Source: Cyanobium sp. Morenito 9A2
GTDB lineage: Bacteria > Cyanobacteriota > Cyanobacteriia > PCC-6307 > Cyanobiaceae
Reading direction: 5' to 3'
Assembly: GCF_024345575.1 (NCBI RefSeq)
Contig: NZ_JAGQBJ010000004.1
Span: 124,001 to 188,000, forward strand
Length of the DNA stretch: 64,000 bases
The translations under genes and the position numbers were made by a program. The notes under the pieces are model-generated. The model was not told where the DNA came from. It did not search any database and saw nothing but the letters and a program-made list of their open reading frames with translations. Within the stretch, counting starts at the first letter, position 1. Each line of letters starts with the position of its first letter. Shown here piece by piece: positions 61,199-64,000 of this stretch.

Positions 61199-61585
61199 CG
61201 GGTGGCGATCGCTCGGAGCCATTTGAACAGAAGCCTGAAGTGGGTGTCCTGGCTCGGCATGGAGGGCTGAGGGGCCAGCCCCAGGAGCTGCCTGCCCCTG
61301 ATCTGCAGACCGTGCCATCGGCCACAGCCTGCAGCCGCCCCGGCACGGTCACCCAGCGGCCCATGGGCACCACCGGGCCCGCCATCCCTGGTCGGAGCAA
61401 GCCCATCGCCGTGGGCCCCTAGCGGCTGAGATCGCCGATCACCCGGATGATTGGGCGACTTGGCACCCAGCCCTCAGGCTCCGCCTGCACGCGGCCCCCT
61501 TGATCCCACGGGCAGCCGCAGGAGTCGACCACCAGCCCCTGCGCTTCAGCGGTCATCCGCCCACTGCTTGTCCCTGCTTCCAACC

Positions 61586-61615
61586 GCGTCACCGGGCCTA
61601 AGGGCCCGGTGACGC
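61586..61615. repeat. Perfect 13-bp inverted repeat
   Basis: Bases 61586-61598 are exactly complementary to 61603-61615 around a 4-base TAAG loop. Both arms are very GC-rich. No T-run follows on either side, so it is not a classic intrinsic terminator. Confidence 0.9.
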
Positions 61616-61993
61616 CCGGGGGAGGCCCGAAGGCCAGTTTCGGCGGCGGTGGTAGTGCTCGCTGGGCATGGCCCCTGGTGCAATCGATTCCCGGGATGGA
61701 CCAGCGCGATGCGCGCATCGCAGGCATCGAGTTGCCTGACGTGCTCCCCAGGGGCACGGCGCATCAACTCCTCCACTGAACCTGCCTGTGCGCAACCCCA
61801 GGAACCTCCGCCTTGAGTCCCTCCCCGTCTGGAGCCCTTGGCGGTGGCCCTGATCCAGGGTGGGCTCCGCCTCCTCCAGGACCCCAGCGCCTGGTGGCGG
61901 ATCGCCACCGCATCGACCAGGGCCCTCATCACGGGTGCACGGCTTGCCCGTCGGCATGGGCCGCCTAGGCGCTCGGGGCTCCCGTTGTCTGCA

Positions 61994-62242
61994 TCAGGTG
62001 GTTGTCGCTGCAGCCTGGCCCTGGAACTGGATCTGCTGCGCCTTCGGATCGATCCCGTTCACCTGACCCCACAGGGCCTCAGTGATGGGCAGCCGCCCCA
62101 CCAGCGGCCTCTCCAGGGTGGCCACATCGGCTGCGGTCAGCTGTCCCGTGGCTACCCGGACGAGCAAGGGCTGGCTCAGGTTGACGTGGCTGCGGTCGTT
62201 CGGGGTGACTCGCACGTCATGGTGCGCCGGCCCGCCCCCCGG
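61994..62242 (-). pseudogene. Possible remnant of a decayed gene
   Basis: A minus-strand frame reads through 62242-61994 with protein-like content. It starts near L-P-G-G-G-P, then V-R-V-T-P-N-D-R-S-H-V-N-L and L-E-R-P-L-V-G-R-L-P-I-T. It has no standard start further upstream; GTG 62215 is the first. A second frame upstream (from about 62335) begins M-E-R-D-H-V-P-T-G-L-D-P-P-L and overlaps it out of phase, with a run of six Gs (plus-strand C) near the switch. This could be one frameshifted gene. I do not recognise the product. Confidence 0.3.
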
Positions 62243-62392
62243 TAAAGCCGAGACCCCACGAACACCCCATCGGAGCGGCCTTGCCGGCGCTCAAGGGGCG
62301 GATCCAACCCAGTGGGAACGTGATCCCGCTCCATTGCTTCCGGGTTGGGAGTTCCGCGATGGTAGGCAGGTGCCCAAGGGAGGAGGGGGAGC

Positions 62393-62990: not shown

Positions 62991-63191
62991 TCAGTTGTCG
63001 GCATCCTTGTTCTTGCGGGAGCCCTTGCCTTCGAGGAGTTCCAGCAGAGCCTCCATCTGGGCCATCACGCCACGGACTTCCCCGGCCTCGGGGAGCAGTC
63101 CGTCGTCCATCACACCTTGGTGCATTTCCCGCAGTTCCTGACGGATGTAGCGCAGATGGCTCACCACCTGTTCGCGCTTGGACTGCGACAT
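62991..63191 (-). CDS. Conserved small helical protein
   Basis: The 66-residue protein begins M-S-Q-S-K-R-E-Q-V-V-S-H-L-R-Y-I-R-Q-E-L-R-E and continues with G-L-L-P-E-A-G-E-V-R-G-V-M-A-Q-M. It is predicted to be entirely helical with a basic tail (K-G-S-R-K-N-K). The pattern is familiar from marine Synechococcus genomes, without a known role. ATG at 63191. A strong terminator follows. Confidence 0.7.
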   Translation of the reverse strand: MSQSKREQVVSHLRYIRQELREMHQGVMDDGLLPEAGEVRGVMAQMEALLELLEGKGSRKNKDADN

Positions 63192-63280: not shown

Positions 63281-63442
63281 TCATGGCTCCCCGAACTGGC
63301 GCTTGGCCGCCTCATAGAAAGCCTGATCGATGGCCGTAAGCCCGTCCTCTCGGGCGAGGGCCTCGATCCGACGCCGTACGACCGGGCGCACGAAAAAAGG
63401 CACCTCCTTGAGCTGGAATTCTGCTTGTGGGGTCCATTGCAT
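63281..63442 (-). CDS. Small stand-alone PCP_red-domain protein
   Basis: This 53-residue gene was found by hand. Its sequence has W-T-P-Q-A-E-F-Q-L-K-E-V-P-F-F-V-R-P near the start, then R-R-R-I-E-A-L-A-R-E-D-G-L-T-A-I-D and A-F-Y-E-A-A-K-R-Q-F-G. The spacing W, A, V-P-F-F-V-R, R-x-x-I-E-x-x-A-R matches the short helical PCP_red domain found at the C-terminus of light-independent protochlorophyllide reductase subunit B. Here it stands alone. ATG at 63442. Confidence 0.78.
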   Translation of the reverse strand: MQWTPQAEFQLKEVPFFVRPVVRRRIEALAREDGLTAIDQAFYEAAKRQFGEP

Positions 63443-63525
63443 TCGACTAAGCAAGGATGGGGGGGATGGCAGCCAGCTTGGTGGCCCCTTGGAGATGAAG
63501 GGACGAGAAATTGATCGTCAGCGGT

Positions 63526-63936
63526 TCAATCCTCGCTGCGGATCACCAATTCTGAGCTTTTCAGATAATAGTTGTAGGTTTTGCCGCTGCGCTCACAGTT
63601 GAGGTCCCTGGCGGCATAAGATTTCAACGGTGTGGTAACGATATGGGTGGATGAGGTGTAGTCGTCATCGTACTTGACCGTGAGAGTCGGTGATTTGTTT
63701 TGGCCTGGAGTTTCGTATTCCCAGAGCATCTTGGTCCATCTGCCCGGGTCAGCGGTATCCTCGTTCCAGGCCCCTGAATCGCCCCAGCGGTACTGGAATT
63801 TGATCTTGGTGCCGGTGTTGGTGCCCAGGCAGGTCAGGGCATATCTCTGCTGTTGTGAGTAAGAGGGCAGGGATGAAAATGTTGAAAGTGTCAGGAGGCT
63901 CAGGGAGAGGATGAGCCGTAGACGGTTATGGATCAT
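63526..63936 (-). CDS. Hypothetical exported protein of unusual composition
   Basis: The protein of about 136 residues has a signal peptide (about 1-27, L-I-L-S-L-S-L-L-T-L-S, then S-L-P-S-Y-S). The mature part is rich in Tyr, Thr, Lys and Asp, and has two cysteines (in L-T-C-L-G and L-N-C-E-R) that could form a disulfide. No family is recognised. The coding region is visibly AT-richer than the rest of the window, which suggests transfer. ATG 63936 or the preceding ATG 63939 may be the start. Confidence 0.7.
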   Translation of the reverse strand: MIHNRLRLILSLSLLTLSTFSSLPSYSQQQRYALTCLGTNTGTKIKFQYRWGDSGAWNEDTADPGRWTKMLWEYETPGQNKSPTLTVKYDDDYTSSTHIVTTPLKSYAARDLNCERSGKTYNYYLKSSELVIRSED

Positions 63937-64000
63937 CACTGACGGACTGATAGGGATTGTTGGATGATCAATTAGAAGCGTTGCGATGTCAAGCGATGGT

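Follow-up and report, generated by a model that had tools for sequence, protein, structure and literature searches.

A rare cyanobacterial family of small exported proteins with a predicted beta-sandwich domain, and the probable gain of one member at a variable site beside tRNA-Ala(CGC)

The closest described counterparts of the exported protein considered here are the transthyretin / 5-hydroxyisourate hydrolase fold, the PepT extracellular domains, the CBM25 starch-binding modules, and DUF1036 (PF06282). CBM25 modules are rich in aromatic residues, as is the exported protein, and the DUF1036 proteins are small exported cyanobacterial proteins with a C-x-N/G-x-T look at the N-terminus. With respect to its genomic site, the comparable systems are genomic islands at tRNA genes, which are marked by insertion at the tRNA 3' end, differing cargo, an integrase, and a duplicated tRNA end.

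The gene lies at the end of the window, a stretch of 64,000 nucleotides from Cyanobium sp. Morenito 9A2 (genome G000, contig C21, positions 124001-188000). Coordinates below are those of the window. Locus L004 comprises positions 180000-199999 of the same contig and extends past the window end; adding 55999 to an L004 position gives the window position. The following features concern the gene and its product.

63526-63939, minus strand: exported-protein gene, an open reading frame of 137 amino acids, supported by five homologues and codon statistics
63529-63849, minus strand: sequence encoding the conserved mature domain of 107 amino acids with its two cysteines
63856-63939, minus strand: signal-peptide-like stretch, read by eye from the sequence
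63964-63992 (L004 7965-7993), minus strand: promoter-like site TTGACA-17-GATCAT, directly upstream of the exported-protein gene

The reading frame starts with GTG, and an alternative ATG is present one codon downstream. By eye, the N-terminus resembles a signal peptide, with basic residues (HNRLR), a hydrophobic core, and a likely cleavage near SYS/QQQ. The protein contains only two cysteines, at positions 37 and 115, both in the mature part. A preliminary description of this DNA had pointed out a signal peptide and two cysteines, and a hydrophobic start and the two cysteines are visible in the sequence. It had also placed the gene at 63526-63960. The gene is real, but the proposed end takes in upstream DNA, as the reading frame reaches only to 63939. 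The promoter-like site is weak evidence, with one found against 0.4 expected; because it is located directly upstream, the exported-protein gene may possess a promoter of its own and be driven by it.

Homologues were found in five further genomes, so that the family has six members (G000, G038, Cyanobacteria bacterium RI_101 (G546), G888, G935, and G982), all from cyanobacteria. Mature-domain identity to the G038 and RI_101 proteins is 51% and 53%, ungapped over 107 columns, and 33-35% to the G888, G935, and G982 proteins. The window, G038, and RI_101 proteins come from three genera. Both cysteines (C8 and C86 of the mature domain), four tryptophans, and further Gly, Pro, Asp, and Tyr residues are kept in six of six members. 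The N-termini of the members are hydrophobic by eye; in G038 the start of the reading frame is uncertain. In pairs for which dS could be estimated, dN was below dS, with values of 0.08 and 1.14 (ratio about 0.07) for G888 and G935. Homology, conservation, and the excess of dS over dN together indicate that these are working proteins of one family rather than products of chance reading frames. A chance or decaying open frame might be suspected near the decayed sequence that the region does hold (61203-62390), but the frame is intact, its mature domain aligns ungapped to two intact homologues, and dN is below dS. As far as sequence can tell, the homologues refute this explanation, and we consider it highly improbable.

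Neither the exported protein nor its homologues had a match in Pfam or NCBIfam. PHROGs, searched with the window and G038 members, and PADLOC, searched with the window and G888 members, also gave no match, and sequence searches of the PDB returned nothing below E 0.26. The protein had been called an orphan that matches nothing. This is correct for Pfam, NCBIfam, PHROGs, and PADLOC, but not for the cyanobacteria, where the five homologues are 33-53% identical. We regard the group as small, rare, and cyanobacterial, a family that is new in the sense that no entry of the four collections describes it, and otherwise of an ordinary kind.

An AlphaFold2 model based on the six sequences has eight strands and a short helix (pLDDT 84.7, pTM 0.77). 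A model of a second member has the same strand order at lower confidence (pLDDT 75.0). The prediction for the mature domain is a beta sandwich of eight strands, transthyretin/Ig-like in type. Foldseek found no match in the PDB at E <= 0.001. VIA-align 2 comparisons group the protein with Ig-like and transthyretin-like sandwiches. For both models the best match was the PepT2 extracellular domain, with Z 8.6 and an rmsd of 2.7 across 91 residues, and scores of about Z 6-7 were obtained with transthyretin-like proteins, TssJ, CBM25 modules, and other structures. The best match in a viral fold search was an uncharacterised Pandoravirus protein (E 1.6e-3). Since common arrangements can reach such VIA-align scores, we take from them the architecture and no function.

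The comparison with the described systems is in line with this caution. The transthyretin / 5-hydroxyisourate hydrolase fold compares with the predicted sandwich at scores within the range of common arrangements (Z 6.1-7.1, rmsd 3.0-3.5). Identity to transthyretin and the PepT extracellular domains in the VIA-align rows is about 2-11%, with no evidence of a common active site, and no Pfam or NCBIfam match to transthyretin / 5-hydroxyisourate hydrolase was obtained among the six members. The CBM25 sandwich is similar (Z 6.4 and 6.3 for 2laa, also in the range of common arrangements); none of the six members had a CBM25 match in Pfam at E <= 5. Membership in DUF1036 was considered and rejected. 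The domain was not listed for any of the six members at E <= 5, and an hhalign comparison with eight real DUF1036 members scored 14.1, a value exceeded by 7 of 60 column shuffles. As a separate observation, DUF1036 has three matches in G009, a genome of the window's taxonomic family (contigs C6 and C47; loci L100, L105, and L106), and 2 of the 61 genomes listed for that family have any DUF1036 match.

The distribution of the family is patchy. Strong matches were present in 2 of 149 relatives (own genome included), in 2 of 399 genomes of the order, in 5 of 388 genomes of the class, and, with a two-sequence profile, in 2 of 386 genomes of the phylum. Weak profile matches were set aside (13 of the 15 genomes listed for the phylum, and 5 of 10 and 4 of 9 for the class). 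The gene is found in one of three genomes of the G038 genus, in one of five genomes of the G546 genus, and in one of 50 genomes of the G546 family. In the G888 family it occurs in three of 38 genomes, which are all three species of genus g256 examined. In two of these, G888 and G935, the gene order is crtB, family gene, rpiA; in the third, G982, the contig begins at the family gene and rpiA is next. The gene looks long settled in this genus. Among the four known settings of the family there is no neighbour in common.

Phage or plasmid origin was also considered and not found. The window protein had no match in 50,697 phage records (tblastn, E <= 1), and the RI_101 protein none in plasmids and phages at E <= 1. 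With the G888 protein, a search at E <= 10 gave chance-level matches only, in seven plasmid and five phage records (best E 0.9 and 0.4, respectively). Three scans of viral contigs brought up no relative. Two scans of genome contigs from 84,980 species found none in one case and only RI_101 in the other; the DNA patterns used reach the closer subgroup only, and absence outside the cyanobacteria is not implied.

A PCP_red gene and tRNA-Ala(CGC) flank the exported-protein gene, the tRNA with its 3' end towards it, and the region has the following features.

62991-63191, minus strand: conserved gene of 66 amino acids, which anchors the site on its left side in relatives
63281-63454, minus strand: PCP_red domain gene (PF08369, E 4.8e-16), conserved and adjacent on the left, in the same orientation as the exported-protein gene
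63443-64000, no strand: variable site, continuing past the window as far as the tRNA-Ala(CGC) 3' end, without counterpart in G001

In relatives, the order of genes is aspartate carbamoyltransferase-like, DUF565, 66-aa gene, PCP_red, tRNA-Ala(CGC), DUF2555, coaBC-like, and psbO-like, names that are based in part on Pfam matches. The site is empty in G001, which was the one further species of the genus compared. The alignment stops at window position 63442 and resumes at the tRNA, and the interval measures 257 bp as compared with 1,316 bp in the window genome. The site was compact, with the 66-aa gene close by, in 25 of the 29 loci of relatives (L007-L035). In the 22 relatives with both, 174-691 bp separate the 66-aa gene from the tRNA, as compared with 1,569 bp in the window genome. 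Of the 29 loci, three yielded no tRNA, and four had no 66-aa gene within reach. These four are in G036, G019, G024, and G035, and cargo was read in the first three. An RTX calcium-binding repeat protein is encoded in G036 (L053 10969-11826), and a UPF0114 protein with a second membrane protein (UPF0259 match below the cut-off) in G019. The site of G024, which belongs to another genus, holds a 7-kb stretch in which, at L056 1733-7651, an RTX-like frame accompanies four different transposase genes.

No remnant of the family was detected by tblastn with the six members against seven sites (best E 0.059). The compactness of the site in 25 of 29 relatives, the unrelated cargo or transposases in others, and the lack of a remnant together indicate a variable, insertion-prone site. 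Insertion at a tRNA 3' end and differing cargo are as in tRNA-site genomic islands, but an integrase was not recognised among the reading frames read between the exported-protein gene and the tRNA, and the tRNA end had no match among the repeats listed. More generally, the interval between PCP_red and tRNA-Ala(CGC) stands out as a place where this cyanobacterial group takes in accessory genes. Beyond the window, between the exported-protein gene and tRNA-Ala, there is also a GC-rich frame of 160 amino acids with a signal-like start (L004 8256-8738, minus strand). It had no Pfam match, and in the loci searched it had chance-level matches only.

The exported-protein gene has a GC content of 0.527 and a GC3 of 0.676. 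Host genes (80 genes of at least 220 amino acids, drawn from some 196 kb of contig C21, shadow ORFs filtered out) have a GC content of 0.677 and a GC3 of 0.829. The 5' flank of the gene is AT-rich as well (GC 0.46), and among the 128 non-overlapping 500-base bins of the window, the final one has the lowest GC content, 0.518. The earlier impression that the gene and its flank contain more A and T than the rest was therefore accurate. In the 196 kb of contig, 500-bp stretches with GC below 0.50, and thus lower than at the window end, are seen at about 28.2-29.5 kb and about 74.5-75.4 kb of G000 contig C21; with two other places of this kind, the dip is uncommon without being unique.

We further considered how much of the deviation stems from the protein itself. 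The same protein written in host codons is expected to have a GC content of 0.587 and a GC3 of 0.833 +/- 0.031. Of the 15-point GC deficit, about 9 points are thus due to amino-acid make-up and about 6 to codon choice. None of 5000 draws with host codons had a GC3 as low as that of the gene, but when host genes were cut into 240 pieces of the gene's length, 10 had a GC3 shift of equal or larger size. The picture is less clear with the unfiltered gene set (ORFs including shadow frames), where 52 of 352 pieces had a GC3 as low. The shift in codon use and composition is real, and it is moderate, not extreme. Codon use differs among the homologues. In the GC-rich genome of G038, the whole reading frame is shifted (1 of 5000 draws), but the mature part hardly (460 of 5000); in G888 the shift is upwards; and in RI_101 and G935 codon use is normal for the host. 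The unnamed homologues thus share with the window protein the cysteine pair, the four tryptophans, and, in the second modelled member, the strand order, but differ in gene neighbourhood and, for RI_101 and G935, in the absence of a codon shift.

These data allow two accounts of how the gene came to its place. It could be an ancient cyanobacterial gene that was lost many times, with AT-richness reflecting amino acids and no recent transfer. All members found are cyanobacterial, all three species of genus g256 keep the gene, two of them between crtB and rpiA, and amino-acid make-up alone already lowers the expected GC, as described above. In addition, in a tree of the six sequences, uniting the two members from the taxonomic family of the window as one clade costs nothing significant (AU p 0.435), so that the tree leaves transfer and vertical descent with multiple losses undecided. 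However, the four settings without common neighbours, the look of an insertion site (compact in 25 of 29 loci, other cargo in three), and a GC3 that stays low once the protein sequence is allowed for do not fit easily with descent and loss, and we consider this account unlikely, although it deserves to be kept in view. The comparison of sites and the patchy distribution favour gain, and the sequence data give good support to the view that the exported-protein gene was gained at a variable site. The preliminary description had named shifted composition and patchy distribution as what would support transfer, and both were observed; normal codon use and presence in all close relatives, which would have spoken against it, were not. 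Gain at a variable site is thus most likely, but it need not be recent, given that identity to the closest homologues is no more than 51-53% over the mature domain.

In the reading that we propose, the gene was gained by horizontal transfer, as accessory cargo. Removal of the signal peptide would leave a single transthyretin/Ig-like beta-sandwich domain, probably pinned by a disulphide bond between its sole two cysteines. The protein may then act outside the cytoplasm, either at the envelope or in the cell's surroundings, as a non-enzymatic binding protein, and its ligand might be a saccharide or another envelope component. Taken as a whole, the description of a rare-family, small, exported, disulphide-held beta-sandwich binding protein, acquired horizontally as accessory (niche) cargo, appears to us reasonably probable. 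Points against the binding function are that the fold matches are weak and name no function, and that the branches of the family have no common neighbour. Moreover, some invariant tryptophans, such as W23, point to the hydrophobic side by strand alternation and may belong to the core, so that a conserved tryptophan need not mark a binding face.

Ig-like folds also serve in secreted inhibitors, and a small, exported, patchily distributed protein at a cargo site could act in competition as a secreted antagonist or inhibitor carried on an island, in the manner of a bacteriocin or a protease inhibitor. The lack of a match to an immunity gene, an export gene, or an inhibitor family, and the stable position between housekeeping genes in genus g256, argue against such a role, and we regard it as very doubtful. 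A broader proposal, in which the four-tryptophan, secreted, disulphide-held beta-sandwich family spreads via insertion-prone sites and confers new extracellular binding (to the surface polysaccharide of a neighbour or of the cell itself) or antagonism, seems quite unlikely to us. Returning to the binding protein, attachment to a surface component would bear on cell-surface differences among strains of the group. Otherwise the exported protein would be one of many rare accessory proteins. In either case, a small, conserved, and unclassified exported protein now has a six-member alignment and a predicted fold.

The gene had been said to lie next to a decayed stretch. Such a stretch exists, but it is a separate insertion at a distance of about 1.1 kb, and three conserved genes lie in between.

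61203-62390, no strand: the "decayed stretch", a 1,188-bp insertion absent from G001

The insertion lies cleanly between the aspartate carbamoyltransferase-like and DUF565 genes, which are adjacent in G001, and no gene was recognised in it. Its six separate ORFs had no Pfam match, three of its six read-through frames gave only a weak tPilZ match below the cut-off, and no plasmid match was obtained. It does contain a 96-bp match (75%) to contig C5 of its own genome, and a 95-bp match is present in G001.
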